The notes beneath the pieces are model-generated. The model saw only the letters and a program-made list of their open reading frames with translations, did not search any database and was not told the DNA's origin. From the NCBI GenBank assembly GCA_023382715.1, contig JAHDWP010000030.1:1-41185 (forward strand): a stretch of DNA of 41,185 nt, written 5' to 3'. The stretch is from Anaerolineae bacterium. GTDB taxonomy: Bacteria; Chloroflexota; Anaerolineae; Aggregatilineales; Aggregatilineaceae. Of this stretch, positions 704 through 16,304 are shown piece by piece; positions within the stretch are counted from its first letter, which is position 1; each line of letters opens with the position of its first letter. The translations under genes and the position numbers were made by a program.

Positions 704-2179
<1,476 letters not shown>

Positions 2180-2193
2180 AACCTTCCCTCTGT

Positions 2194-2823
2194 TTAACCC
2201 ATTCGTTGCACTAGCGCCGCCTTGAGCGGCGCGTCCCGAAGCGTGCCCACGTCCAGCAGTGCTGCGACACCGGGGAATTCTAACACCGGCAGGAGCACTT
2301 CGTCCGGCAGCCCAGCGACGATCTCGGCCATCGTGCGATGCGCCAGCGCCGACACGCCGGCCAGCATCTCGCGCGACTGGCGCTGTGATTCCTGGCGGTG
2401 CGCGGGATAGCCCGCCCCGGACTCAACGCTGAAGAGGCGGTCGAAGATGAAGCGCAGGTTGACATCCGCTGCCCAGCCATAGCCCTGGTTGAGCGCCAGC
2501 GAGAGGCAGTTGCCCCCGTTGATCTGGGCGAAGAGCCAGGCGTCGAGCGAGCTGAGGACGTGCCCGCAGAACACGCCGGGGTACTGCATGGCCGCGTTGA
2601 GGAAGCCCTGCCCGGTGCCGCAGCCGCCCACGACGAAGTCGGCGCGCCCGGCGTTGAGCAGCAGCGCCGCCAGCAGCCCGGTGTGGATGTAGGTCAGCTC
2701 CGGCCTGGCCCCGTTTTTGACCATGCCGGCGTTGATCACGGTGTGGCCGCGCCCATCGAGCGCCGCCAGGATGTCGGCGTTGCGGTCTGCCGCGCTTGTC
2801 TCGTTGATGACTGCGATTCGCAT
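2194..2823 (-). CDS. RpiB/LacA/LacB-family sugar-phosphate isomerase
   Basis: The N-terminus ([10 protein letters not shown]) and the motif GCGTGQG (67-73, with Cys68) match the aldose-ketose isomerase fold of ribose-5-phosphate isomerase B. Cys68 aligns with the family's catalytic cysteine. At 209 residues it is longer than canonical RpiB (about 150), so it belongs to a divergent subgroup found in sugar-catabolic operons. That subgroup may act on four-, five- or six-carbon sugars or their phosphates. GAGGAG lies 6 nt before the ATG. It sits between the transketolase C subunit gene and the dehydrogenase gene. The pairing with a split transketolase suggests it isomerises an aldose produced by the transketolase reaction; this is inference. 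Confidence 0.82.
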
Positions 2824-2852
2824 CAGGTTCTCCTCACCCGAACGGGCGGCGC

Positions 2853-3794
2853 TCAGCGCCGGCGCTCCAGAGCGCGCCGGGCGGCGGCGGCGACATCGCT
2901 CACGCCCAGCCCCCAGGCATCCATCAGCGTGTCGGGGTCGGGGCCGGTCTCGGCGAAGGTGTCCTTGAGGCCGACAAACTCGACCGGCGCCGGGTACCCA
3001 CCGGCCAGGGACTCGGCGACCGCGCTGCCCAGCCCGCCCAGGATAGTGTGATCTTCGGCAGTGACCAGCGCGCCGGTTTCCTCGGCGGCCTGGCGCACCA
3101 GGTCGGCATCGAAGGGCTTGATCGAGGTCATGGACAGGACGCGGGCGCTGATGCCCTCGCCTGCCAGCAGGTCGGCGGCCTGGATGCAGCGCCCGACCAT
3201 GCTGCCCGACCCGATGATCGTCACGTCATGGCCAGGGCGGACGGTCGTGCCCTGGCCGAGGCGCACCGTGTGGTCGCTGCCGAACACGTCCGGCACGGCG
3301 GCGCGGCTGATGCGCATGTAGACCGGCCCGTCGTGCTCGGCGATGATCGGCACCAGCAGGGCGGCCTCGGTGTTGTCGGCGGGGGCCAGCACGACGATGT
3401 TGGGCATGGCCCGCATCAGGGCCACGTCGTTGGTGGCGAAGTGGGTGGGGCCGTCCTTGTAGTCCGACAGGCCGGAGTAGCCGCCGATGAGCTTGACATT
3501 GGTGCGGGCGTAGGCCACACAGGTGCGAATCTGCTCGCAGGCACGCAGGGTGAGCAGCGCGGCGAAGGTGTTGACGAAGGGGATGGCCCCACCCAGGGCC
3601 AGGCCCGCGCCCACGTTGACCATCGAGGCTTCGGTCACGCCCAGGTTGAAGAAGCGCGCCGGGAAGCGGTCGGCGAAGTACTTGGTCAGGGTCGAGGACG
3701 ATACGTCGGCATCGAGCACGACCACATCGGGATTGATGGCACCGTAGTCGGCCAGAGCCATGCCATAGGCCTGGCGCTGTGGAATCTCGCTCAC
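2853..3794 (-). CDS. Transketolase, C-terminal (Pyr plus C-domain) subunit
   Basis: This 313-residue protein carries the pyrimidine-binding and C-terminal domains of a split transketolase. The conserved cofactor-activating Glu is Glu55 in NLGVTEASMVN. The GTG start at 3794 was chosen because it overlaps the stop of the N-subunit gene as GTGA (4 bp), with AAAGGA just upstream, and gives the normal subunit length. An in-frame extension back to 3863 would lie wholly inside the upstream gene. With the N subunit it should form a thiamine-diphosphate enzyme that moves two-carbon ketol units between sugar phosphates. The tight overlap implies translational coupling and 1:1 production. Confidence 0.93.
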   Translation of the reverse strand: MSEIPQRQAYGMALADYGAINPDVVVLDADVSSSTLTKYFADRFPARFFNLGVTEASMVNVGAGLALGGAIPFVNTFAALLTLRACEQIRTCVAYARTNVKLIGGYSGLSDYKDGPTHFATNDVALMRAMPNIVVLAPADNTEAALLVPIIAEHDGPVYMRISRAAVPDVFGSDHTVRLGQGTTVRPGHDVTIIGSGSMVGRCIQAADLLAGEGISARVLSMTSIKPFDADLVRQAAEETGALVTAEDHTILGGLGSAVAESLAGGYPAPVEFVGLKDTFAETGPDPDTLMDAWGLGVSDVAAAARRALERRR

Positions 3795-4630
3795 GCTTCG
3801 TATCCTTTCAGTTCGGCCCTGGCCTGCGCGTACTCTTTCTCGCTGGGCACTGCGCCGTGCCACTTGGCGGTGTTCTCCATGAAAGAAACGCCCTTGCCCT
3901 TGGTGGTGTGGGCGACGATGACGGTGGGCATACTGTGAATCTCCAGGGCGGTGTCCAGCGCATCCAGGACCTGATACAGATTATGCCCGTTAATCTCGAG
4001 GACGGCGAAGCCGAAGGCCCGCCATTTGTCCACCAGCGGCTCCAGCGGCATGATGTCGTGCGCTGCGCCGTCAAGCTGCACGCCGTTGTAGTCCATCAGC
4101 ACGGTCACTTCGCTGGCCCTGAACTTAGAGGCGGCCAGCGCGCCCTCCCAGGCGACGCCCGACTGCATGTCGCCATCGCTCATCATGACGTAGGTGTGAT
4201 AGTGCGGGCCGCGCAGCCGTTGGGCGAGGGCCAGGCCCACCCCCACCGACAGCCCGTGCCCCAGAAAACCCGACGACATCTCGACGCCGGGCGTCTTCAG
4301 ACGGTCGGGGTGGCCTTGCAGGTGCGCGCCCACATGCCCCCAGCGTTCCAGGTCTTCCGTCGGGAAGAAGCCGCGCTGGGCCAGCGCCGAATAGAGCGCC
4401 GCCGCCGCGTGCCCCTTGCTCAGCAGAAAGCGGTCGCGCTCCGGCCAATCGGGGCGCGCCGGGTCAATCTTGAGGTGGTGGAAATACAGGGCGGCCAGCA
4501 TCTCGGCGCACGAGAATGACCCGCCAGGATGCCCCGCCGCGCGACGGTAGACCATGTCCAGCACGTCGAGGCGAATCTGGCGCGCGCGCTCCTGCAGGTC
4601 GCGGATCAGAGACTCAGAGTGATGGTGCAT
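3791..4630 (-). CDS. Transketolase, N-terminal (TPP-binding) subunit
   Basis: This 279-residue protein is the thiamine-diphosphate (PP-domain) half of a split transketolase. Visible motifs are GHPGGS (33-38), SKGH (71-74), GFLGHGLSVGVG (121-132) and the metal/TPP motif SDGD (151-154) with Asn182 in MDYNG. The ATG at 4630 has AGGAG about 8 nt upstream and gives the usual family length. A much longer open frame reaching 5350 overlaps the upstream TPP-enzyme gene and is rejected. Together with the C half it forms one functional transketolase. Split forms are common in archaea, Firmicutes and Chloroflexota and often sit in dedicated catabolic operons. Confidence 0.93.
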   Translation of the reverse strand: MHHHSESLIRDLQERARQIRLDVLDMVYRRAAGHPGGSFSCAEMLAALYFHHLKIDPARPDWPERDRFLLSKGHAAAALYSALAQRGFFPTEDLERWGHVGAHLQGHPDRLKTPGVEMSSGFLGHGLSVGVGLALAQRLRGPHYHTYVMMSDGDMQSGVAWEGALAASKFRASEVTVLMDYNGVQLDGAAHDIMPLEPLVDKWRAFGFAVLEINGHNLYQVLDALDTALEIHSMPTVIVAHTTKGKGVSFMENTAKWHGAVPSEKEYAQARAELKGYEA

Positions 4631-4650
4631 TATCCAACTCCTGGCGATGG

Positions 4651-6459
4651 CTAGATACGCTCGTCGCGCCGCTCGCGCTCGTAGACTTCGCGGCGCTTCT
4701 CGAAGTAGCCGGGCACGGGCACGTCCCACCAGCCGGGGGCCAGCCCGCCCGAAGTGCCGAGGCTGCTGTCCACCATGACCTCGATCACCGCCGGGCCGCC
4801 GAGAGCCAGCGCGTGCTCCAGCGCGGGCGCGATCTCGTCGGGCCGGCTGATGCGCACGGCGTGCGCCCCGAAGGCGCGCGCGGCGTCGGCGATGTGCGGA
4901 GTCAGCGGCTCGCGCCCGTCCTCGAACATGGTCGCGTAGACGGCCTCTTCGCCGTAGGCGATGATCTGCAGGTCGCGGATGGCCTGCCAGCCCTGGTTGT
5001 TGAGGACGACGCTGACCACCGGAATGTGGTACTGCACGGCGGTCGCCAATTCCTGGAAGGTCATCAGGAAGTCGCCGTCGCCGACCAGGGCCACCACCGG
5101 GGTATCCGGCGCGGCCAGCTTGGCGCCCATCGCCGCCGGGAACGACCAGCCCATCGTACTGAAGCCGCCCGCCGCGAGATAGGTGCGCGGGCGGGTGAAG
5201 GGCATCTCCTGGAAGACCTGGGCCTGCACGTTGCCCGACGAGGTGAAGACGATCCCCTCCGGCGGCAGCACCTTGCGCACCTCGCCGATGGCCCGGCCCA
5301 TCGTCACCGGGGCGCTGTTGGACTCGCGCAGGGCGCGGCTCTGCGCCCACCAGCCGGCGACGTGTTCGGCGATCTCGCGCGTGTAGGGCGCGTCGCGCCA
5401 GTTGCGCGGCGGGGTGAGGGCGCGCACCGCCTCCAGCAGCCCGGCCAGGATCGCCTGCGCATCGCCGACAATGCCCACCTCAACCGGGTAGTTCTTGCCG
5501 ATCTCGAACGGGTCAATGTCGGCGTGGATCAGCCTGGTGGGCGGGATGCTGAAGGACGCGCCCGGCTTGTAGGATGAGGCAGCTTTGTCGGCGAAGCGCA
5601 CGCCCACCGCCAGCAGCACGTCGGCGTGAGTCGTCATGTAGTTACCGCAAGTCGTGGCGTTGCTGCCCATGTGCCAGGCGTAGAGCGGGTGATCTTCGGG
5701 GAAAGCGCCCTTGCCCTGCATGGTCGTCACCACGCACGCGCCCAGGTGCTCGGCAAGCTGGCGCAGCTCGTCCCATCCTTCGGACAGGATGACGCCGCCG
5801 CCCGCGACGATCACCGGACGGCTGGCGCCAGTTAGCAGCCTGGCAGCCTGCTGCAGGGCGGTAGGATCGCCGGCGGGACGATCGTGCGGGCGGCGCGCGC
5901 GCGGCTGCGGCGCGTCGGGCAGCTCCACCAGGTCAGCCTGCACGTCCATCGGCAGCGTGACCAGCGCAGGACCGGGGCGACCGGTGCGCATGGCGTTGAA
6001 GGCCTGGCTCATGGCCCGCTGAAGCTGGACGGGGCTGTCAATGTGCCAGGCGCGCTTGACGGTCGGGTACAACATGCGCGGCATGTCCGACCAGTGCTGA
6101 CGCTCGATCTCCTGCAGCACGCCGACGCCGCGCATGTAGGTGTGCGTCTCGCCGATGAGCAGCAGCAGCGGAATCGAGTCCACGTAGGCGGTCGCCAGGC
6201 CGATGGCGGTGTTGGCCGCGCCAGCGCCGATGGACGTGAAGACGGCCAGCGGCTCGCCTTTGACGCGGAAGTAGCCGTCGGCCATGTGCACGGCGGCCTG
6301 TTCGTGGCGCGGCATGATCACCCGCAGATCATCCTGGCGACGGCGGAAGGCATCCACCAGCGCCAGGTTGCCGTGCCCCGGAATGCCAATGACATACGGC
6401 ACGCCTTCGCGCACCAGGATGTCAGTGACGATCTCCGAACCTGTCAGTCTCATGCTCAT
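4651..6459 (-). CDS. Thiamine-diphosphate enzyme of the acetolactate synthase superfamily, IolD-like
   Basis: This 602-residue protein has the Pyr-middle-PP domain order of the acetolactate synthase/pyruvate oxidase superfamily. The catalytic Glu is Glu53 in RHEQAAVHMADGY. The TPP/Mg motif is VGDGD (459-463) with NN at 487-488. Its N-terminal GIPGHGN segment resembles the GHGN segment I recall from IolD, the trihydroxycyclohexanedione ring-opening hydrolase of inositol catabolism. The neighbouring IolG-like and IolA-like genes fit an IolD-type role. Acetolactate synthase itself is unlikely because there is no regulatory subunit and the context is catabolic. Two ATGs compete: 6459 has GGAGG only 2 nt upstream, while 6453 has better spacing (8 nt). 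Residue numbers are from 6459. Confidence 0.8.
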   Translation of the reverse strand: MSMRLTGSEIVTDILVREGVPYVIGIPGHGNLALVDAFRRRQDDLRVIMPRHEQAAVHMADGYFRVKGEPLAVFTSIGAGAANTAIGLATAYVDSIPLLLLIGETHTYMRGVGVLQEIERQHWSDMPRMLYPTVKRAWHIDSPVQLQRAMSQAFNAMRTGRPGPALVTLPMDVQADLVELPDAPQPRARRPHDRPAGDPTALQQAARLLTGASRPVIVAGGGVILSEGWDELRQLAEHLGACVVTTMQGKGAFPEDHPLYAWHMGSNATTCGNYMTTHADVLLAVGVRFADKAASSYKPGASFSIPPTRLIHADIDPFEIGKNYPVEVGIVGDAQAILAGLLEAVRALTPPRNWRDAPYTREIAEHVAGWWAQSRALRESNSAPVTMGRAIGEVRKVLPPEGIVFTSSGNVQAQVFQEMPFTRPRTYLAAGGFSTMGWSFPAAMGAKLAAPDTPVVALVGDGDFLMTFQELATAVQYHIPVVSVVLNNQGWQAIRDLQIIAYGEEAVYATMFEDGREPLTPHIADAARAFGAHAVRISRPDEIAPALEHALALGGPAVIEVMVDSSLGTSGGLAPGWWDVPVPGYFEKRREVYERERRDERI

Positions 6460-6491
6460 TCCCTCCCCAGGGATGGCCTGACCGTGCCCGG

Positions 6492-7553
6492 CTAGAGCCG
6501 GACAGCGCGCCCGGCCCGCGCAGATTCCTGGGCGGCCAGCGCGAAACGCAGGATTTCGCGGCCTTCCCAGGCGGTGAGGCTCGGCGGCTCACCGGCGAAG
6601 TAGGCGTCAATAAAGTGCCGCGTTGAGTTGATGAAGCTGTGCTCCCAGCCGACGGGCATGTCGGAGTGGGCGTACACTTTGCGGTCGCGGTAGAGCACGA
6701 CGGGCGGCACGTCCATCATCTTGCCGTGCCCGCGCGTGATCCACAGCACACCCTTGCTGCCGGTGATCTCGATGCGGTCGTCCTGAGCGTAGTGCTGAGT
6801 GTCCAGCACCAGCTCCGGCGAGTTGACCACTTCCAGCGACCCATAGCGGTTGTTGCTGAACTTCCAGGAGACGATGCCCGGCGAGTCCAGCAGGAAGCCA
6901 GGGGCGATCTCGGTCGCGCCGATCCAGGCGTGGACTTCTTCGGCCAGGCCCATGAAGAACCAGGCCAGCGAGAACTTGTGGTGCCCATCGTCGAAGACGA
7001 GCGGGCCGCCGCCGCATTCTTCGGGCTTGTAGCGCCAGGCCCAGGCCGCGTGCGGCACGTCCCACATGGTGGGGCTGGTGCCGGAATTGCTCTTGATGCG
7101 GATGGTCAGCGGGTCGCCGATCTCGCCGGCCTCGATCAGGGCTTTGGCGCGCTGTACCGGCGGGTAGAAGATGAAGTTCTCGAACACCTTGAAGAGGACG
7201 CCGGCCTGCCTGGCGGCGGCGATCATCTCGTCGGCTTCGGCGACGCTCAGGGCCATCGGCTTTTGCAGCGAGATGTGCTTGCCGGCGGCGGCAGCGTCCA
7301 GAGTCGCCTGGCGATGGAGGTGATGGGGCAGGAGGATTTCGACCAGGTCCACGTCGGGGAGGGCGAGCAGATCATGGTAATCGGTGAAGATGCGATCGGA
7401 CGCGACGCCCCATTGCGCGCCGCGCGACTCGGCGAGCTGGGGGTCAATGTCGCACACGGCGACGATACGCGCCCGTTCGTTGGCCAGGTATTCCAGGGCG
7501 TGCAGGTCGGAGATGCGCCCTGCGCCGATGAAACCGACTCTTAGCAAGTCCAT
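6492..7553 (-). CDS. Gfo/Idh/MocA-family NAD(P)-dependent oxidoreductase
   Basis: This 353-residue protein has an N-terminal Rossmann fold (GFIGAGRI at 7-14) and the family motif LQKPMALS near 96-103. Gln replaces the usual Glu of EKP, which is an uncommon but known variant. The C-terminal substrate domain holds the active-site segment DDGHHKFSLAW. Relatives oxidise myo-inositol (IolG), sugars or glycosides. The ATG at 7553 has AAGGAG 8 nt upstream; an upstream extension to 7610 would cross the operator and is rejected. It is the first structural gene of the leftward operon, directly after the regulator gene, and probably catalyses the first dehydrogenation of the imported substrate. Confidence 0.88.
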   Translation of the reverse strand: MDLLRVGFIGAGRISDLHALEYLANERARIVAVCDIDPQLAESRGAQWGVASDRIFTDYHDLLALPDVDLVEILLPHHLHRQATLDAAAAGKHISLQKPMALSVAEADEMIAAARQAGVLFKVFENFIFYPPVQRAKALIEAGEIGDPLTIRIKSNSGTSPTMWDVPHAAWAWRYKPEECGGGPLVFDDGHHKFSLAWFFMGLAEEVHAWIGATEIAPGFLLDSPGIVSWKFSNNRYGSLEVVNSPELVLDTQHYAQDDRIEITGSKGVLWITRGHGKMMDVPPVVLYRDRKVYAHSDMPVGWEHSFINSTRHFIDAYFAGEPPSLTAWEGREILRFALAAQESARAGRAVRL

Positions 7554-7567
7554 AGACACCGCTCCTT

Positions 7568-7592
7568 GTTGTGCTATGCGCAACACTGTTGC
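7568..7592. promoter_or_regulatory. IclR-type operator O1 with an overlapping second palindrome
   Basis: GTTGTGCTATGCGCAAC (7568-7584) is an imperfect 17-bp palindrome. It overlaps a perfect one, GCAAC-ACT-GTTGC (7580-7592). It lies between iclR and the oxidoreductase gene, just upstream of the latter's ribosome site. It shares the layout GTTGT-N7-nCAAC with sites at 8435 and 8507. Confidence 0.65.
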
Positions 7593-7643
7593 ATCAAAAG
7601 AGCCTTTCATGAGCGGGGTTGCGAAAAGCCCTGCAACCTCCGA

Positions 7644-8390
7644 TCAAGCGCGTTGAAAGCTCATACGGTTGGAAAGTTCGCGCGCGGCGTCCAGCACCAC
7701 CTGCGCGAAGTGCGGGAGACGATCCAGGCCCATACGTCCCGCCGGGCCGGAAATGCCGATCGCGCCGATGACTTTGCCCCGGTAGTCGAAGACCGGGGCG
7801 GCCACGCAGCGCACGCCGAAGTCGTATTCCTCGTCGTCCACCGCGTACCCCTGGCGGCGCGTCTGCTCCAGGTGCAGGCGCAGCGCCTGGGGATCGGTGA
7901 TCGTGCGCGGTGTGAAGGAAGGCAGCGCCTGGGGCGATGCGATGCCGTTGTCGAAGGCGAGCAGGCACTTGCCCAGCGCCGTGCAGTGCAGCGGGGCGAG
8001 CGTGCCCACGCCCGTCGTGACGCGCAGCGAGGCCGCAGACTCGACCTGGTCCACGTAGAGCGCCTGATCCTGGGCCAGGATGGCCAGGTGCGCGCACTCA
8101 CCGGTGCGCTCGACCAACTGGCGCAGGAAGGGCTTGGCTGCGTCGCGCAGGGGCATGCGCGTCAGCAAGCTGCGGCTGAGGCGCACGACCTGCGGGCCGA
8201 GCCGGTAGCGCCGGCTGGCGGCGTCCTGCTCAGCGTAACCGTAGATGGCCAGGGTTTGAACGAGGCGGGAGGCGCTGCTCTTATCAATGCCAAGCTCTGC
8301 GGCAAGCTCGGTGATGCTGACCGGGTCACTGCTGGCGGCCAGAAGCTCCATGATCTTCAGGCCGCGCGCAAGCGATTGGATTTCCGACAA
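7644..8390 (-). CDS. IclR-family transcriptional regulator
   Basis: This 248-residue protein has an N-terminal winged helix-turn-helix (about residues 5-65, with SITELAAELGIDKSSASRLV) and the IclR effector-binding domain. The C-terminal part contains TALGKCLLAF and GISGPAGRM, which are typical of the family. I chose the TTG start at 8390, preceded by AAAGGA 8 nt upstream. A TTG at 8450 lies inside the -10 region of the gene's own promoter and cannot be translated from that transcript. The gene sits at the divide between the leftward catabolic genes and the rightward transporter. Its promoter and both flanking units carry the same 17-bp palindrome, so it probably represses itself and the locus until a pathway metabolite binds. 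Confidence 0.92.
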   Translation of the reverse strand: MSEIQSLARGLKIMELLAASSDPVSITELAAELGIDKSSASRLVQTLAIYGYAEQDAASRRYRLGPQVVRLSRSLLTRMPLRDAAKPFLRQLVERTGECAHLAILAQDQALYVDQVESAASLRVTTGVGTLAPLHCTALGKCLLAFDNGIASPQALPSFTPRTITDPQALRLHLEQTRRQGYAVDDEEYDFGVRCVAAPVFDYRGKVIGAIGISGPAGRMGLDRLPHFAQVVLDAARELSNRMSFQRA

Positions 8391-8434
8391 GTTGGCGTTC
8401 CTTTGCGAGCGCAATCTCCAGGCAGGTGCGGATT

Positions 8435-8451
8435 GTTGTGCATTATACAAC
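8435..8451. promoter_or_regulatory. IclR-type operator O2 over the iclR -10 element
   Basis: GTTGTGCATTATACAAC is a 17-bp palindrome with 5-bp arms GTTGT/ACAAC. It contains the -10 hexamer (TATAAT on the minus strand) of the iclR promoter, so binding would block polymerase. It matches O1 and O3 in arm sequence and spacing. Confidence 0.72.
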
Positions 8452-8470
8452 GCAGCGCCGGGGATGTCAA
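8442..8470 (-). promoter_or_regulatory. Consensus sigma-70 promoter of iclR
   Basis: On the minus strand TTGACA (8470-8465) and TATAAT (8447-8442) are exactly 17 bp apart, a perfect match to the consensus. Transcription would start near 8435, about 45 nt before the TTG start codon. Confidence 0.85.
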
Positions 8471-8487
8471 TCGGTCAGCGCCAGTTG

Positions 8488-8516
8488 TTGACAATGAATA
8501 AACCCTGTTGTACGAT
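8488..8516 (+). promoter_or_regulatory. Sigma-70 promoter of the sugar ABC transporter operon
   Basis: TTGACA (8488-8493) and TACGAT (8511-8516) are 17 bp apart. The -10 lies inside operator O3. The -35 elements of this promoter and of the divergent iclR promoter are only 17 bp apart. Confidence 0.8.
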
Positions 8517-8523
8517 AACCAAC
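8507..8523. promoter_or_regulatory. IclR-type operator O3 over the transporter promoter -10
   Basis: GTTGTACGATAACCAAC is the third 17-bp site, flanked by T and A to give TGTTG...CAACA as at O1. It overlaps the -10 of the rightward promoter, consistent with repression. Confidence 0.7.
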
Positions 8524-8625
8524 AGAGTCCGCATACGCCGTGCCCAGGCACACGTATGCCGACCGGTGACCGAGGGCCGTATCGCCGAAGAGTCCTGGCC
8601 GGGCACAACTGATGGCTTCTGGGGT

Positions 8626-10134
8626 ATGGGCATTGTGACCACTTCCTCCGACATACTCGAAATGCGCGGAGTGAGCAAGTGTTTCTCCACCGCTGTCGCG
8701 CTCGATCAGGTGGATTTCAGCGTGCGCCAGGGCGAAGTCCACGCGCTCATCGGCGAGAACGGCGCGGGGAAGTCTACCCTCATCAAGATTCTCTCCGGCG
8801 CGTATCAGCCCGACAGCGGCGGGTTTTCGCTCGATGGCAAACCGGTGCTGCACCGCTCCCCGGCCCTGATGCAGCGCCTGGGAATCAGCGTGATCTACCA
8901 GGAGCTGAACCTGGTGCCGCACCTGAGTGTGGCGCGCAACATCTTCCTGGGCCATGAGCCTGTGGTCGTCCCCGGCGTGATTGACTTCCAGACGATGCAC
9001 CGCCGTGCTGCGGAACTGGTGAGCCAGCTTGGTGTCCCCATCTCGACCCATGCTCTGGTCACTGAGCTGGGGATCGCGGAGCAGCAGCTTGTCGAGGTGG
9101 CGAAGGCGCTGTCGTATCAGGTCAGGCTCCTGGTCATGGATGAGCCGACCGCGCCGCTGAGCGAGCATGAGGCCGAGACGCTGTTTGACGTAGTGCGCCG
9201 GCTGCGCGATCGAGGCGTCACGGTCATCTACATCTCGCACCGGCTGGAGGAGATCTTCCGGCTGGCCGACCGCGTAACTGTGCTGCGTGACGGGCGGGTT
9301 GTGGGCACCAGGATGGTCCACGAGGTTGAAAAGGACGACCTGGTGCGCATGATGGTTGGGCGCGACATCAAGGAACACCATCCCAAAGCAGAAGTGGAGC
9401 CTGGCGAGGTGCTGCTGCGGGTTCGTGGCCTGCCTGGGCGGGATGGCGAGACAGCCGAACTGACCATCCGCGCCGGAGAGATCGTCGCTCTGGCGGGGTT
9501 GGTCGGGTCGGGGCGCACTGAGTTGGCCCGGCGGCTGTTTGGCGCGGAAACGCTGAAGACGGGCGCAATGGAGCTAAAGGGGCAAACGATCGCCATCCGC
9601 TCGACGCGCCAGGCCATCCGCGCGGGAATCGGCATGGTGCCGGAGGATCGCAAGACGCAGGGGCTGATCTTGGATCGGTCGGTGAGCGACAATATCACGC
9701 TGCCGATCCTGGGGCGGCTGTCGCGGGGGTCCTTCATCCGGCGCGGCCTGATCCGCGACCTGGTGAGCAACATCATCCGCGAGATTGACATCCGTGTTTT
9801 CAGCGCCAGGCAGGCGGTGCGCACGCTCAGCGGCGGGAACCAGCAGAAAGTCACCCTGGCGAAGTGGCTCGCCGGCCAGTGCGACGTGCTGATCCTGGAT
9901 GAGCCGACGCGGGGCGTTGACGTGGGGGCCAGGGCCGAGATCTACCAGGTGATTGGCAAGCTGGTACAGGAGGGCAAAGGAATCCTGCTTATCTCCTCCG
10001 ATCTGCCAGAAGTTCTCGGTCTGAGCGATCGGATCATAGTGGTTTACGGAGGGCGCCTTGTCGCCGAATTCACCCGACGCGACGCTGTCGCAGAAACTAT
10101 CATCCGGTTCGCCTCCGGCGCGTTCGAAGACTAG
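8626..10134 (+). CDS. RbsA-type sugar ABC transporter ATP-binding protein (two ATPase domains)
   Basis: At 502 residues this is the standard length of the CUT2/RbsA family, with two fused ATPase domains. Domain 1 has Walker A GENGAGKST (43-51), a degenerate signature LGIAEQQLVEVAK and Walker B LLVMDEPTAPLS. Domain 2 has a degenerate Walker A (GLVGSGRTEL), a good signature LSGGNQQKV and LILDEPTRGVD. This asymmetry is normal for RbsA. The ATG at 8626 has only weak SD (GGGG); a GTG at 8635 is an alternative. It is the first gene of the rightward operon. It should energise import of the sugar or polyol handled by the leftward enzymes. The family is secure and the substrate unknown. Confidence 0.93.
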   Translation: MGIVTTSSDILEMRGVSKCFSTAVALDQVDFSVRQGEVHALIGENGAGKSTLIKILSGAYQPDSGGFSLDGKPVLHRSPALMQRLGISVIYQELNLVPHLSVARNIFLGHEPVVVPGVIDFQTMHRRAAELVSQLGVPISTHALVTELGIAEQQLVEVAKALSYQVRLLVMDEPTAPLSEHEAETLFDVVRRLRDRGVTVIYISHRLEEIFRLADRVTVLRDGRVVGTRMVHEVEKDDLVRMMVGRDIKEHHPKAEVEPGEVLLRVRGLPGRDGETAELTIRAGEIVALAGLVGSGRTELARRLFGAETLKTGAMELKGQTIAIRSTRQAIRAGIGMVPEDRKTQGLILDRSVSDNITLPILGRLSRGSFIRRGLIRDLVSNIIREIDIRVFSARQAVRTLSGGNQQKVTLAKWLAGQCDVLILDEPTRGVDVGARAEIYQVIGKLVQEGKGILLISSDLPEVLGLSDRIIVVYGGRLVAEFTRRDAVAETIIRFASGAFED

Positions 10135-11077
10135 CTCGCGACGCTGGCGGTCGCTGGCGCAGGCCCTGGCCCCGCTGGTCGTGCTCATCCTGATCTGTGC
10201 GGCGGTGTCGCTGCTCACCCCGCGCTTCCTGACCGAAAAGAACCTGATCAACGTCGTGCGGCAGTCTTCGCTCAATGGCATCATGGCCGGCGGCATGACC
10301 CTGGTCATCCTGACGGGCGGGATTGACCTGTCAGTTGGCTCGCTGCTGGCCGTGACCAGCGTCTTCGCCGCGGGGACTCTGGTGGACGGCGCCAGCCCGA
10401 CCCAGGCGATACTGGTTGGCGTGGCCATTGGCCTGGGGTTCGGCCTGGCCAACGGTCTGATCATCACCATCGGCGACGTTGCCCCCTTCATCGTCACGCT
10501 CGGCACGATGACCATCGCGCGCGGCGTCGCGCTCATTTACACCAATGGCGCGCCCATCGTGACGGCTAATGCCGACTTTCGCTATATCGGGCGCGGCAGT
10601 TTTGGCCCGCTGCCGATGCCGATTCTTATCCTACTCATCGTCTACGTGCTCGTGTACCTGCTGCTCAACCGGACGACGCTGGGCGGGTACCTCTACGCCA
10701 TCGGCGGCAACCAGGAAGCAGCGCGACTGTCGGGCGTGCCTGTCAAAGTGTGCAAGACGATCGCCTACGCCATCAGCGGCCTGCTGGCCGGCCTGACGGG
10801 CGTCATCCTGACCGCGCGGTTAGGATCGGCGCAGCCGAATCTGGGCGTTGGCGATGAGCTGGACGCCATCGCCGCCGTGGTGATCGGCGGCACGAGCCTG
10901 GCCGGCGGGCGCGGCGGGATCATCGGGACGCTGGTGGGCGCGCTGATCATCGGCGTGCTGTCCAACGGACTCAACCTGATGAACGTCAACGCTTACTATC
11001 AGCCGATCGTCAAAGGGGCTGTCATTCTGATCGCCATCCTGGTTGATCGCCGCGTCCGCGCAACCAGCGCGGCCTGA
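10058..11077 (+). CDS. RbsC-type sugar ABC transporter permease
   Basis: This 339-residue polytopic protein of the RbsC/AraH (CUT2) family carries the hallmark segment GIDLSVGSLLA in the N-terminal third and GGTSLAGGRGGI near the C-terminus. The start is a TTG at 10058 with GGAGG 5 nt upstream. It overlaps the ATPase gene by 77 bp in another frame. No other start with a ribosome site precedes the first membrane segment, so translational coupling to the ATPase gene is likely. It forms the membrane channel of the importer. No solute specificity can be read from the sequence. Confidence 0.9.
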   Translation: MSPNSPDATLSQKLSSGSPPARSKTSSRRWRSLAQALAPLVVLILICAAVSLLTPRFLTEKNLINVVRQSSLNGIMAGGMTLVILTGGIDLSVGSLLAVTSVFAAGTLVDGASPTQAILVGVAIGLGFGLANGLIITIGDVAPFIVTLGTMTIARGVALIYTNGAPIVTANADFRYIGRGSFGPLPMPILILLIVYVLVYLLLNRTTLGGYLYAIGGNQEAARLSGVPVKVCKTIAYAISGLLAGLTGVILTARLGSAQPNLGVGDELDAIAAVVIGGTSLAGGRGGIIGTLVGALIIGVLSNGLNLMNVNAYYQPIVKGAVILIAILVDRRVRATSAA

Positions 11078-11179
11078 TCGTGCCCCGCAGCGGGCAGCAT
11101 CGGCCGGCAAAGCGTGAGCTTTAGAAGCGTGCAAGTATCGTCCAAAGTCCGCGCAAAGAGAATTGTGAAAGGGAAACCC

Positions 11180-12940
11180 ATGAACAAGAAACGTTCGCTC
11201 CATCTCCTGGTAATCATCGCGCTGTTCAGTGTCGTTGGGGCCTGGCTGCCGGGCGTTCCGGCCCAGGCTCAGACACTCCGCCTGGGTCTATCCGTCTCGA
11301 CCCAGAGCAACTCGTTCTACCGGTCGCTGGCGCAAGGCGTCGCTGATGAAGGCAAGGCGCTGGGAGCCGAAGTCACTGTGCTGAGCGCCGACGACCAGCT
11401 TGAGAAACAGATCTCCGACGTGGAAGACCTGATCGCGGCTGACATTGACGTGCTGCTGATCAATGCCGTCCAGGGCGAGGCCGTCGGCGTGATCGAAGAC
11501 GCGATCAGCATGGGCATCCCGGTGATCACGTTGCAGCGCGCTGTGGCCAGCTCGCAGGTGACGAGTCACCTGGGCACGGACAACGTGCTGATCGGGAAGC
11601 TGGCGGCGGAGTGGCTGGTGGACAAGCTGGACGGGCAGGGCAAGGTGGTGGTGCTGGAAGGCATTCCGGGCGCGGCCAGCTCTGAGGACCGCAAGGCTGG
11701 CTCCACGCCGGTCTTTGCTGCGGCGCCGGGCATCGAGATCGTGGCCCAGCAGACTGCCGAGTACGACCGGGCGACGGCGCTGAGCGTGATGGAGAACATC
11801 CTGCAGGCGACGCCGGACATTGACGCGGTGTTCTGCTACAACGACGAGATGGCCATGGGCGTTCTGGCCGCGCTGGAAGCGGAAGGGCGCGACGATGTGC
11901 TGATCACAGGCATTGACGCCTTGCCGGACGCGGTGGAAGCGGTGCAGCAGGGCAAGCTGGCCATGACCATTCGCATCCCCGTCTACGATATGGGCCGCCT
12001 GGGCGCGCGCTACGCCATGGAAGTGGCGGCGGGCAACATGGTGCCTGTGCAGTCGGTCATTCCTGCTGTGTTCGTCACGCCAGAAAATGTGGACGCGGCT
12101 GCAGAGCCGGCCCCTGCCGACACTGAACTGCTGATCGGCGTGTCGGTCTCGACCCAGAGCAACTCGTTCTATCGGTCGCTGGCCGAGGGGGCCGCTGCTG
12201 AGTCTGTGGCGCTAGGTTATAAGGCGAACGTGCTGAGCGCCGACGACCAGCTTGAGAAGCAGCTTTCCGACGTGGAAGACCTGATCGCGGCTGACATTGA
12301 CGTGCTGCTGATCAACCCGACCCAGGGCGAGGCCGTCGGCGTGATCGAAGACGCGGCCCGGGCGGGTATCCCGGTGATCACCATGCAGCGCGCTGTGGCC
12401 AGCTCGCAGGTGACGAGTCACCTGGGCACGGACAACGTGCTGATCGGGAAGCTGGCGGCGGAGTGGCTGGTGGACAAGCTGGACGGGCAGGGCAAGGTGG
12501 TGGTGCTGGAAGGCATTCCGGGCGCGGCCAGCTCTGAGGACCGCAAGGCTGGCTCCACGCCGGTCTTTGCTGCGGCGCCGGGCATCGAGATCGTGGCCCA
12601 GCAGACTGCCGAGTACGACCGGGCGACGGCGCTGAGCGTGATGGAGAACATCCTGCAGGCGACGCCGGACATTGACGCGGTGTTCTGCTACAACGACGAG
12701 ATGGCCATGGGCGTTCTGGCCGCGCTGGAAGCGGAAGGGCGCGACGATGTGCTGATCACAGGCATTGACGCCTTGCCGGACGCGGTGGAAGCGGTGCAGC
12801 AGGGCAAGCTGGCCATGACCATTCGCATCCCCGTCTACGATATGGGGCGCTGGGCGGCCCGCTTTGGGGCATGGACGGCCCTGGGCGAGATCACGGTACC
12901 GGTGCGCAACGTCATCCCGATCGAGTTCATCACGCCCTGA
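11180..12940 (+). CDS. Sugar ABC transporter binding protein with two tandem periplasmic-binding domains
   Basis: This 586-residue protein starts with a signal peptide ending near AQAQT (residues 28-32). Two RbsB-type binding domains follow, where the family normally has one domain and about 310-340 residues. Domain 1 opens with GLSVSTQSNSFY (36-47) and domain 2 with GVSVSTQSNSFY (320-331), an exact 284-residue period. Residues 118-271 and 402-555 are identical in protein and DNA. A linker rich in Ala, Pro and Glu joins the halves. There is no lipobox cysteine, so it may be soluble or held by its uncleaved N-terminus. It follows the permease gene in the operon. A duplicated domain could raise local binding capacity or avidity. 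Confidence 0.92.
   Translation: MNKKRSLHLLVIIALFSVVGAWLPGVPAQAQTLRLGLSVSTQSNSFYRSLAQGVADEGKALGAEVTVLSADDQLEKQISDVEDLIAADIDVLLINAVQGEAVGVIEDAISMGIPVITLQRAVASSQVTSHLGTDNVLIGKLAAEWLVDKLDGQGKVVVLEGIPGAASSEDRKAGSTPVFAAAPGIEIVAQQTAEYDRATALSVMENILQATPDIDAVFCYNDEMAMGVLAALEAEGRDDVLITGIDALPDAVEAVQQGKLAMTIRIPVYDMGRLGARYAMEVAAGNMVPVQSVIPAVFVTPENVDAAAEPAPADTELLIGVSVSTQSNSFYRSLAEGAAAESVALGYKANVLSADDQLEKQLSDVEDLIAADIDVLLINPTQGEAVGVIEDAARAGIPVITMQRAVASSQVTSHLGTDNVLIGKLAAEWLVDKLDGQGKVVVLEGIPGAASSEDRKAGSTPVFAAAPGIEIVAQQTAEYDRATALSVMENILQATPDIDAVFCYNDEMAMGVLAALEAEGRDDVLITGIDALPDAVEAVQQGKLAMTIRIPVYDMGRWAARFGAWTALGEITVPVRNVIPIEFITP
11532..11994 (+). repeat. 463-bp exact direct repeat inside the binding-protein gene, copy 1
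   Basis: This is identical base for base by eye to 12384-12846 (offset 852 bp, or 284 codons). It is bounded on both sides by divergent positions (GT versus CA before it, C versus G after it). Shorter similar blocks exist further upstream in each domain. Confidence 0.9.
12384..12846 (+). repeat. 463-bp exact direct repeat inside the binding-protein gene, copy 2
   Basis: This is the second copy of the repeat at 11532-11994, in the second binding domain. The perfect identity includes synonymous positions, so the exchange or duplication is recent. Confidence 0.9.
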
Positions 12941-12963
12941 GCAGCCTGTGATAGTTCAGCCAA

Positions 12964-12988
12964 GGGGCGGCACCACGTGTGTCGCCCC
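12964..12988 (+). terminator. Hairpin after the binding-protein gene
   Basis: GGGGCGGCAC pairs with GTGTCGCCCC (one G-U pair) around the loop CACGT, 23 bp after the stop codon. No T tract follows, so it may protect the mRNA 3' end rather than terminate intrinsically. Confidence 0.45.
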
Positions 12989-13027
12989 GCTCACTCCGAA
13001 GATCTGATCGTGTTCGGGCGCGGAGCG

Positions 13028-13094
13028 AAAGGAGGTGATGCCCGGTTATCGAGCTGACCGATGAGTTGACAACCAGGTGGCCAACATTTCGATA
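13028..13094 (+). promoter_or_regulatory. Putative control region of the second sugar transporter
   Basis: TTGACA (13066-13071) is followed 17 bp later by a weak TCGATA. The -35 lies inside an imperfect 19-bp palindrome, TTGACAACCAGGTGGCCAA (13066-13084), a plausible repressor operator. Upstream, AAAGGAGGTGAT (13028-13039) fully matches the 16S anti-SD sequence but no normal gene follows it. The -10 call is weak. Confidence 0.35.
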
Positions 13095-13208
13095 CAGTGC
13101 GCTTTCGCACAGACTCTGCGGTCGATCGGTCTGATAACCTCAACAATTCTGAGCGTCCTGGTGAACTGAAACGGAATCCTTAATCACAGTTGCGGGAGGC
13201 TAGGTCAA

Positions 13209-14468
13209 ATGCGTAGGAAAACAGGCTTGCACCTGCTGTTGCTGGCGCTGATCGTGCTGGGCATCGGCGCGACCTCTGTCGGCGCACAGGAAAAGATCAG
13301 CATTGTGCATTACTTCAGCGATGTCCTCGGCAAGGAAGCGATCGGGAAGATCTTCACCGCTTTCAACGAGACACACCCCGGCTACGAAGCTGTGGACAAC
13401 TCCGCTGGACATGAAGACTTCAAGACCCAGATTCTGGTCACCATCGCTGGCGACAACCCGCCCGATGTCTTCTCTTACTGGGCAGGCGCACGCACGCAGT
13501 TCGTGGTTGATGCGGGCCGCCTGATGAGCCTGGCCGACTTCTGGGAAGAGAACGATCTGGACGCGATTATCCCTGAGGGCGTGAAGGCTGCGGCCATCTA
13601 CAACGACGACATCTATCTGATCCCCATGAACGCCCACCTCACCGGCTTCTGGTACAACACCAAGGTGATGGCCGACGCCGGAATCACCAAGATGCCGGAA
13701 ACCTGGGATGAGTTCAAGGAAGCCTGCGTCACCCTCAAGGAAGCGGGCGTCCACCCGATCTCGCTCGGCTCGATGAACCGCTGGCCGGCCCAGTACTGGT
13801 TCGACTACACGGTGTCCTACACTGCTGGCGCGGAATATCGCCAGAAGCTGATGGCGGGCGAAGCTAAGTACACGGATCCCGAAGTCGTCACCGCCATGGA
13901 AGCCTGGAAGGAACTGACCGATCTCGGTTGCTTCGCCCCAGACTCCAACGCCTACGACTGGACTGAGGCCGCCGACATGGTCGCCAACGGCACCGCCGCG
14001 ATGAACCTGATGGGCACCTGGATCAGCGGCTACCTGAACGGTCTTGGCCTGGAGCCGGGCGTTGACTATGACTTCTTCCCCTTCCCGGTGATCAACCCCG
14101 ACGTGCCGCGCGTGACGCATGGCACGGTTGATGGCTGGGTCGTCCCGGAGAACGCCAAGAATCCCGAAGGCGCCAAGGCCCTGCTGCTGCACTTTGTGAG
14201 CAAGGAGTCGCAGGAGCTTTGGGCGGTGGGGCAGGGTGCGCTGGCCGCTTCGACCGCCGTGGATCCGGGCATCTACTCGCCGGTCATGGCGAAAGCAGCG
14301 GAGCACCTGGCGAGCGTCATGTTCCTCGGCGGCTATGATCTGTCCACCACCCCGCCGATGGCCGAGGGCGGGCTGGACATGTTCGCCATGTTCATGAACG
14401 ATCCGTCGGGCTATCAGGAGTATCTTGAGATCGCCCAAGAGGTCGCCGACGACGTGTTTGGTGGGTAA
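13209..14468 (+). CDS. Extracellular sugar-binding protein, family 1
   Basis: This 419-residue protein has a signal peptide (hydrophobic residues 8-24, cleavage near VGAQEK) and the fold signature of family 1 solute-binding proteins. Typical segments are GDNPPDVFSYWAG, the ligand-site MNAHLTGFWYN and the C-terminal GTVDGWVVPENAKNPEGA. There is no lipobox. A GGGAGG ribosome site precedes the ATG at 13209. It is the first gene of an importer operon with two permease genes and should capture an oligosaccharide or sugar for them. A strong hairpin follows the stop codon, as often seen after highly expressed binding-protein genes. Confidence 0.92.
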   Translation: MRRKTGLHLLLLALIVLGIGATSVGAQEKISIVHYFSDVLGKEAIGKIFTAFNETHPGYEAVDNSAGHEDFKTQILVTIAGDNPPDVFSYWAGARTQFVVDAGRLMSLADFWEENDLDAIIPEGVKAAAIYNDDIYLIPMNAHLTGFWYNTKVMADAGITKMPETWDEFKEACVTLKEAGVHPISLGSMNRWPAQYWFDYTVSYTAGAEYRQKLMAGEAKYTDPEVVTAMEAWKELTDLGCFAPDSNAYDWTEAADMVANGTAAMNLMGTWISGYLNGLGLEPGVDYDFFPFPVINPDVPRVTHGTVDGWVVPENAKNPEGAKALLLHFVSKESQELWAVGQGALAASTAVDPGIYSPVMAKAAEHLASVMFLGGYDLSTTPPMAEGGLDMFAMFMNDPSGYQEYLEIAQEVADDVFGG

Positions 14469-14485
14469 GCTAGTCTGAAGCTCAT

Positions 14486-14515
14486 GGCACAGGGCGGAAG
14501 CCTCCGCCCTGTGCC
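14486..14515 (+). promoter_or_regulatory. Perfect 13-bp intercistronic hairpin
   Basis: GGCACAGGGCGGA pairs perfectly with TCCGCCCTGTGCC around AGCC, between the binding-protein and first permease genes. No T tract follows. Such stems shield upstream mRNA from 3' exonucleases and so favour the binding protein over the permeases. Confidence 0.7.
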
Positions 14516-14542
14516 GGTCTCGTGGTGCAGGAGACGAACCTG

Positions 14543-15424
14543 GTGACGCGATCGCGACATATCTGGGCGTTTTTGTTCTTGCTGCTGCCCGTAACCTTTT
14601 ACCTCGTTGTGGTGATCTACCCACTGTTTTCGTCGTTCTATTTCAGCTTCACCGACTGGAACGGCTTCAGCCAGGACTACAGCTTCGTCGGGCTGGACAA
14701 CTATAAGAAGATGCAGACCGACCGCCTGTTCCGCAACGCCATCGAGAACACGGTCATCTGGACGGTCGCCGCCATCGTGCTGCCAACAGCCGGCGGCCTG
14801 GTGCTGGCCCTGGCGCTGCACGAGCGGGGCATCCTCTCCCGGCTCTTCAAGTCGCTGTTCTACCTGCCCATTTGCCTGTCCCTGGTCGTCGTCGGCCAGG
14901 TCTGGATCTGGATTTACCAGCCGGACTTCGGGCTGATCAACGTGGTTTTACGGGGCGTCGGGCTTGACAATTGGACGCGGGCCTGGCTGGCCAAGCCGGA
15001 CACGGCGCTGCAAGCGGTCATTGCCGCGTGGACGTGGCAGCAGACCGGCCTGGCCATGGTCATCTTCCTGGCCGGGCTGACTGCTGTGCCGCGCGAGCTG
15101 ACCGAGGCGTCGCAGATAGACGGGGCGAACTACTGGCAGTCTGTGCGCCATGTGATCGTCCCCTTGCTGCGGCCCGCTTCCATTGTGGTCATCGCCCTGG
15201 CGGTCATCAACTCGCTGAAGAGCTTCGACATCCTCTACATGATGACGCGCGGCGGCCCCTTCCACTCGTCGGACAATCTGGCGATGATGGTTTACAACGA
15301 ATCATTCCAGAAATACCGCATGGGCTATGGCAGCACCGTCGCTGTGGTGCTGTTCATGATCACGCTGGTCGTCATCACCATCTACTTCCGCCAGCAGCGC
15401 GGCCTGGAGCAGCTCTATGACTAA
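14543..15424 (+). CDS. Sugar ABC transporter permease 1 (MalF/UgpA type)
   Basis: This protein of about 293 residues has six predicted membrane segments and the cytoplasmic EAA loop EASQIDGANYWQSVRHVIVP, where the ATPase docks. The GTG at 14543 was chosen because GGAGA lies about 9 nt upstream. A GTG at 14522 would add seven residues but has no SD. It follows the binding-protein gene after the hairpin and overlaps the next permease gene by 8 bp. It is one half of the CUT1-family membrane channel. Closest functional types are maltose, raffinose or glycerol-3-phosphate permeases; the substrate cannot be read from the sequence. Confidence 0.9.
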   Translation: MTRSRHIWAFLFLLLPVTFYLVVVIYPLFSSFYFSFTDWNGFSQDYSFVGLDNYKKMQTDRLFRNAIENTVIWTVAAIVLPTAGGLVLALALHERGILSRLFKSLFYLPICLSLVVVGQVWIWIYQPDFGLINVVLRGVGLDNWTRAWLAKPDTALQAVIAAWTWQQTGLAMVIFLAGLTAVPRELTEASQIDGANYWQSVRHVIVPLLRPASIVVIALAVINSLKSFDILYMMTRGGPFHSSDNLAMMVYNESFQKYRMGYGSTVAVVLFMITLVVITIYFRQQRGLEQLYD

Positions 15425-16304
15425 CCTCGCATCTGCCGCGACGACAGAGGCCCAGGCCGACAGGGCGAAAGAACAGGCAAAAGCACGGCGCTCGATGGTG
15501 ATCCTGTACGTGGTCCTGACTCTGCTCCTGCTGATCTATTCGCTGCCGACCATCGGCGTGCTGCTGACCTCGCTGAAAACCAATGCCGAGATCTCGCGCG
15601 AAGGCGTCTGGAACCTGCCGGACAGCCTGAGCCTGGACAACTACCGGGCGGCCTTGCAGGACGGAAACGCGGGGCCTTATCTTATCAATTCGCTCAAAGT
15701 GACCATCCCGGCCTGCGTGCTCTCCATCGTCTTCGGCGTCCTGAGCGGCTATACCCTGGCCAAGCTGCCTTTCCGGGGCAGCGATATCCTGTTCATCTTC
15801 CTCGTCGCCGGGTTGTTCTTCCCGCCGCAGATCGTCATGATCCCCCTCTTCCGCATGTTCAACTCGGCGGGGCTGTACGACACGCTGTGGCCGATGATCA
15901 TCGTGCACGCCGGGTTCGGCATCCCCATCTGCACGCTGGTGCTGAAGAACTTCTTCGCCACCATCCCAACCGCGATCCGCGAAGCGGCCATCATTGACGG
16001 CGCGAACGAGATACAAGTGCTGCTGCGAGTCATGCTGCCCCTGTCGCTGCCTTCGCTGGCGGTGCTGGCGACCCTTCAGTTTACCTGGATCTGGAACGAT
16101 TTTCTGTGGCCGGTCATCTTCACCCGCTCGGACGAAGTGCGGACCATCATGTTCGGGCTGGCATCGTTGCGCGGGCAGTACAGCGTCGCCTATGGCACGC
16201 AGGCCGCGATGGCCATCTTGGCGAGCATCCCGACGCTGTTGATCTTCATCTTCTTCCAGAAATACTTCATTCGCGGGCTGACGCTGGGGTCGGTGAAGGG
16301 CTAG
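15417..16304 (+). CDS. Sugar ABC transporter permease 2 (MalG/UgpE type)
   Basis: This 295-residue protein has six predicted membrane segments and the EAA loop EAAIIDGANEIQVLLRVMLP. The first 25 residues are charged and Ala-rich, then the first membrane helix begins (MVILYVVLTLLLLIY). The ATG overlaps the permease 1 gene by 8 bp, so the two are probably translationally coupled. It completes the CUT1 channel. No ATP-binding subunit gene follows: the next gene is on the other strand. The system therefore probably uses a shared MsiK-type ATPase encoded elsewhere. Confidence 0.9.
   Translation: MTNLASAATTEAQADRAKEQAKARRSMVILYVVLTLLLLIYSLPTIGVLLTSLKTNAEISREGVWNLPDSLSLDNYRAALQDGNAGPYLINSLKVTIPACVLSIVFGVLSGYTLAKLPFRGSDILFIFLVAGLFFPPQIVMIPLFRMFNSAGLYDTLWPMIIVHAGFGIPICTLVLKNFFATIPTAIREAAIIDGANEIQVLLRVMLPLSLPSLAVLATLQFTWIWNDFLWPVIFTRSDEVRTIMFGLASLRGQYSVAYGTQAAMAILASIPTLLIFIFFQKYFIRGLTLGSVKG

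Follow-up and report, generated by a model that had tools for sequence, protein, structure and literature searches.

The window, i.e., the whole stretch of 41,185 nucleotides that was analysed, carries an ABC transporter locus in which the sugar-binding protein consists of two binding domains in one chain. The genes and features are:

704 to 7610, minus strand: catabolic genes, perhaps using the imported compound (profile matches)
7644 to 8450, minus strand: IclR-type regulator, divergent from the transporter (IclR_C and HTH_IclR)
8287 to 10134, plus strand: RbsA-like ATPase (ABC_tran twice), true start probably downstream of 8287
10058 to 11077, plus strand: RbsC-like permease (BPD_transp_2)
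11180 to 12940, plus strand: tandem CUT2 sugar-binding protein, 586 aa (open reading frame, two Peripla_BP_4 stretches, AlphaFold model)
11276 to 12037, plus strand: domain 1 (alignment of the copies; Peripla_BP_4 at 11285–12037)
12128 to 12937, plus strand: domain 2 (alignment of the copies; Peripla_BP_4 at 12134–12865)
11532 to 11994, plus strand: homogenised middle, copy 1, 463 nt identical to 12384–12846 (alignment of the copies)
12384 to 12846, plus strand: homogenised middle, copy 2, 463 nt identical to 11532–11994 (alignment of the copies)

The tandem binding protein and its neighbours

The reading frame of the tandem protein starts at ATG 11180, immediately preceded by AAAGGG, and stops at 12940; the frame also contains a GTG at 11114. 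Its two Pfam Peripla_BP_4 stretches sum to 387 bits against a gathering score of 35.1, and either domain is also detected individually by profile search. This domain score, together with the adjoining fused-ATPase RbsA and the RbsC permease, identifies a Peripla_BP_4 protein of the CUT2 class. AlphaFold, supplied with 13 tandem sequences, predicted two complete folds in the window protein (mean pLDDT 84.6) with a low-confidence linker at residues 309–313, while the mutual orientation of the domains is not fixed by the model (pTM 0.58); downstream of domain 2 the model contains neither a helix nor residual sequence. The initial annotation had described two full domains joined by a short linker into one chain and served by an ordinary RbsA/RbsC pair, and had suggested predicting the structure of both pockets. 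The profile matches, the model and the RbsA-like and RbsC-like genes directly upstream bear out this description, and the pocket residues were compared by mapping to RbsB. The single signal peptide is a judgement by eye. A simple pattern search for a lipobox was negative for the window protein, as was a scan for promoters and terminators at 12900–13230.

The RbsA and RbsC neighbours of the binding protein are kept in three related genomes and the IclR-type regulator is kept in loci L174, L175 and L176. The initial ~120 residues of the RbsA-like reading frame match nothing. The minus-strand genes at 704–7610 include an aldehyde dehydrogenase (methylmalonate-semialdehyde-type), an RpiB-like isomerase, a split transketolase, a TPP enzyme and a Gfo/Idh/MocA oxidoreductase. 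A second transporter lies directly downstream (13209–16304, plus strand), comprising two permeases and an SBP_bac_1 binding protein whose length is ordinary for a single domain; this binding protein also adjoins the tandem gene in L174 and L175.

Divergence and exchange between the two halves

Over 266 codons, the halves of the window gene share 88% of their amino acids and 89% of their nucleotides. The likeness, which together with its unevenness is new relative to the initial annotation, is greatest in an exact run of 463 nt, with the copies offset by 852 nt. Divergence is concentrated in the first ~80 codons and in the C-terminal part, and for the latter the ungapped figures are inexact because of a small indel.

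A search of relatives, which had been proposed as a check, recovered the same architecture. A second genome of the genus (G002) has a tandem gene that is 93% identical with the same neighbours, and a genome from another family of the same order (G322) has one that is 76% identical in the same operon. Within the genus the gene is present in two of five genomes, the remaining three having more distant matches only. At 34 residues the window halves differ from each other, and the same difference is found at 27 of the 34 in the orthologue L008 and at 12 of the 34 in the orthologue L144, where a further three are swapped. L144 is far less homogenised, with ~80% DNA identity between its halves including gap columns (83.5% without gaps) and a longest exact run of 95 nt. 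These patterns point to a duplication that predates the split of the two species of the genus, and the shared domain-specific residues and operon suggest that it is probably older than the split from the other family as well.

In a nearest-neighbour test, 58 of 97 domains were closest to, or tied with, their own partner and 39 were closer to a domain of another protein. Such a test fails to separate recent duplication from concerted evolution, therefore a four-sequence site test was run on 13 chosen pairs, in which sites where the four domains split two against two are scored as concerted, orthologous or crossed. Between the window gene and L008 there were 40 concerted, 55 orthologous and no crossed sites, and these were unevenly placed: 26 concerted against 2 orthologous at nt 244–648, 8 against 4 at nt 649–729, and 6 against 49 at nt 1–243 and 730–810. 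The middle thus groups by gene and the ends group by domain. A Fisher test of nt 244–648 against the ends gave p ~1e-13, which is a guide only, as the bins were chosen post hoc and adjacent sites are non-independent. Another tandem type (L010 against L012) has the same layout, with 42 concerted sites and 14 orthologous sites, the latter all at nt 1–162 and 730–819. Concerted sites dominate in 11 of the 13 pairs, a result that independent duplications could also give; the exceptions are the window gene with L008, and L026 with L027 (31 concerted, 28 orthologous, 7 crossed).

Synonymous divergence has the same form. For the middle, the two halves of the window gene are separated by a dS of 0.009 and those of L008 by 0.071, compared with 0.27–0.30 between the species, whereas in the N-terminal part the halves stand at 0.50 and 0.73 and the species at 0.30 and 0.45. 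Taken with the site test, this dS pattern indicates that the duplication preceded the species split and that each lineage subsequently re-equalised its middle. This is concerted evolution: the middles were homogenised independently in the two species, whereas the ends remained specific to their domain. The dN/dS ratios of the two domains are 0.105 and 0.122, consistent with similar purifying selection on both halves.

Crossing-over between misaligned repeats is expected to produce one- and three-domain genes. G144, a congener of the tandem genome G322, holds a single-domain gene, L145, in the same operon and 78% identical to domain 2. We typed L145 at the 135 sites that differ between the L144 halves: it has the domain 1 letter at 29 of 33 sites in nt 1–100, is mixed in nt 101–455 (12 domain 1, 22 domain 2, 2 neither), and has the domain 2 letter at 54 of 66 sites in nt 456–852. 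L145 thus reads as a recombinant with a domain 1 start and a domain 2 end, a pattern that both a true deletion and an assembly collapse would fit. A second single-domain gene, L035 from a Spirochaetaceae bacterium MAG, has homologues of RbsA, RbsC and the IclR regulator alongside. It is 55–59% identical to the window domains and agrees with them at 13 of 15 mapped pocket residues; it differs in having one domain and a TPP-enzyme neighbour only 28% identical to that of the window. With L145 in the same operon and L035 among similar neighbours, one domain can suffice.

Multi-domain binding proteins in other genomes

The fetched loci contained 46 distinct multi-domain proteins, which are no random sample since the loci were picked by likeness to tandem queries. 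Five of them have three domains, and in 45 of the 46 the closest partner within the same protein is at least 83% identical. The sole weakly homogenised case is a three-domain protein in G101 (L153:1393–4110, minus strand), whose domains are only 67–72% identical. At the other extreme, the halves of L009:1444–3291 and L156:1465–3309 are 100% identical, in L009 also across 801 nt of DNA, which would fit a duplication or homogenisation that happened very recently, or an effect of the assembly.

Among the best 80 of 421 loci from a named collection, multi-domain reading frames occurred in 18, in records titled as Chloroflexota/Anaerolineae-type or as Clostridia/Bacillota. Petrocella sp. FN5, which is not titled a MAG, has a tandem in one of its 12 Peripla_BP_4 reading frames (13 matches). 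Across 396 genomes of the class, with three candidates scored apiece, a match at E 1e-57 or better was found in 31, whose rows mix single, tandem and triple forms. Eight of the 18 genomes of the family were ≥90% complete and ≤5% contaminated; six were chosen (G003 and G015 were left out), and tandems, i.e., adjacent matches within one open frame, were counted manually. In these six, 20 of 108 Peripla_BP_4 reading frames (128 matches) are tandem, with 1/9, 3/16, 9/31, 3/16, 1/14 and 3/22 per genome, the window's own genome having 1/9.

Other binding-protein families were searched in four of the six genomes. No in-frame pair occurred among the SBP_bac_1 matches listed (159 in total, longest listed frame 562 aa), among 66 SBP_bac_5 matches, where two frames of more than 1,000 aa hold one match each, or among 17 Peripla_BP_6 matches. 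A mixed-family tandem was observed in G005, where a 794-aa reading frame (L173:1321–3705, minus strand) has a Peripla_BP_6 and a Peripla_BP_4 match. Separately, contig C11 of G000 has two adjoining Peripla_BP_4 reading frames at 63274–65182 (frames of 376 and 340 aa) with equal E-value and score, perhaps a fresh duplication as separate genes. The literature search, which covered titles and abstract openings and few subscription papers, gave, among the papers listed, no description of a free-standing tandem CUT2 binding protein.

Ligand pockets and explanations for the doubling

The initial annotation called the protein RbsB-type. This fits the fold: the ribose-binding proteins 2ioy and 2dri share the fold of each half and the transporter class, and the best Foldseek match is 2ioy (43% identity; TM 0.93, normalised by target length). 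The name itself is not safe to use, as the halves score 198.5 and 210.7 bits against a cut-off of 337 for the RbsB equivalog NF007936. The whole chain reaches 396.2 bits, above the cut-off, because the scores of the two domains add up, and a tandem protein can therefore pass a naming cut-off that neither half reaches. Unlike the window protein, ribose-binding proteins have one domain per chain; of 715 structures matched at E up to 0.001, the 50 that were listed have lengths of 270–315 residues.

Fifteen positions, including 16, 89, 103, 164, 214 and 234, which we take to be the ribose-pocket sites of RbsB, were mapped onto the domains, and the residue identities at these positions are consistent with the RbsB sequence. 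At all 15 the two domains of the window gene carry the same residues, and so do those of two tandem orthologues. Six of the 15 differ from E. coli RbsB (F16Y, D89Q, S103T, F164Y, F214I, A234R), and with F16Y, D89Q, F164Y and F214I among them the pocket departs from that of a ribose binder; the other tandem types L012 and L025 have the RbsB residues at all 15. Since the six positions differ from RbsB while the halves match, the ligand is probably something other than ribose and the same for both halves. The divergent catabolic genes would fit a sugar, polyol or sugar acid. Inositol was rejected, as the IolD-like protein scores 323.1 against a cut-off of 715 and the IolG-like protein 126.9 against 355, both far below. 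A sulfoquinovose-type transketolase route was suggested by the split transketolase and RpiB-like isomerase (available part of PMC12890257); no route-specific gene was found and it is kept as a lead.

It is, to our knowledge, still unsettled why certain ABC importers carry more than one binding domain, the cases considered being few and membrane-fused.

According to the available sections of the GlnPQ paper (PMC8025302), the tandem domains of this Lactococcus lactis importer keep their structure and affinity and act independently. GlnPQ resembles the window system in having two binding domains per chain on a flexible linker (14 residues in GlnPQ) and one ABC importer, and differs in that its domains are fused to the membrane domain and have differing specificity (PMC8025302, same sections). 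The window protein is instead a chain separate from the permease (gene at 10058–11077), without membrane fusion; it is a type I (RbsB-like) binding protein, not of the GlnPQ fold class, with halves 88% identical and matching pockets. OpuA likewise keeps two similar binding domains close to one translocator, at millimolar local concentration, and they cooperate according to earlier work cited in the accessible text of PMC11065425; each OpuA membrane subunit has one domain fused to it, whereas in the window both are in one separate chain. Tandem binding domains are known from GlnPQ, and what is new is a free-standing, homogenised multi-domain CUT2 receptor.

Starting from the architecture, its conservation, the similar purifying selection, the separate homogenisation and the same mapped pocket residues, we lean somewhat towards a CUT2 receptor that was doubled in frame and later homogenised, with two same-ligand domains feeding one RbsA/RbsC. 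The mature domain of a CUT2-type (RbsB-like) binding protein would have duplicated in frame, and recombination between the repeats, by gene conversion or by unequal crossing-over via one- and three-domain states, would have re-equalised the middles and left the outer ends domain-specific. Both domains would bind the same compound, work independently on the flexible linker and deliver alternately to one translocator, so that a second loaded domain would be near the docking site and the binding sites per chain would be doubled. Faster loading of the transporter, one of two possibilities in the initial annotation, is a plausible best guess by analogy with GlnPQ and OpuA, whereby this chain would keep two loaded domains near one RbsA/RbsC pair. 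There are counterpoints: the single-domain relatives in the same or a similar operon (L145, L035) mean that two domains are not required, and in OpuA domains at one docking site compete and empty domains can slow transport (accessible text of PMC11065425), which might also apply here.

The single-domain L145 in a congener of a tandem genome and the existence of L035 would equally suit an internal repeat that is unstable, forming and collapsing frequently and conferring no advantage, as would the patchy occurrence of the tandem form, e.g., in one of nine Peripla_BP_4 frames in the window's own genome. We consider such a functionally neutral or transient repeat rather unlikely, as long intragenic repeats should be readily lost and yet the tandem persists in two genomes of the genus and in a genome of a different family, with purifying selection similar on both halves. 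The second possibility in the initial annotation, binding of two ligands, or of one at two affinities as in GlnPQ, could draw on the first ~80 codons and the C-terminal part, which differ between the halves and whose differences are kept. The mapped pockets, which agree at all 15 positions in each of three tandem orthologues, and the nearly identical, re-equalised middles disfavour it, making it improbable. A double-size chain without a lipid anchor might alternatively be better retained on the surface if the cell lacks an outer membrane, as we assume for the envelope of the source organism. The window protein and most tandem proteins of its family are without a lipobox by a rough pattern, which found one in 18 of 44 multi-domain proteins with the N-terminus present against 67 of 113 single-domain proteins; at least one of the 18, L134, looks false and L153 was possibly missed. 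With these counts, and with phyla mixed, lipobox loss was dropped as a mark of doubling, and we regard retention as having a small chance of being the reason.

An assembly artefact might be suspected in a draft of 82 contigs, where an exact repeat of 463 nt is difficult for short reads. This is very improbable: the halves have different, diverged ends, which recur domain by domain in separately assembled genomes, nine tandem reading frames occur in a family genome of five contigs, and short reads would presumably sooner collapse than create such repeats. These sequence comparisons argue that the tandem gene is not an artefact of its contig, and since the same tandem gene is found in two other genomes it is not chance. 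Conversely, short-read assemblies may hide tandem genes of this kind.

A broader reading, possible though doubtful, is that CUT2 receptors in Chloroflexota and some Clostridia have a tunable number of binding domains (one, two or three). Recombination within the gene would insert, delete and re-equalise domains, and the multi-domain states would be maintained by selection on scarce-sugar uptake. If so, there would be a class of free-standing, homogenised multi-site receptors, none of which we found described in the literature searched. These genes form a natural set of separate-chain receptors, including one- and two-domain congeners in the same operon, in which the consequences of domain number can be examined against a nearly unchanged background.
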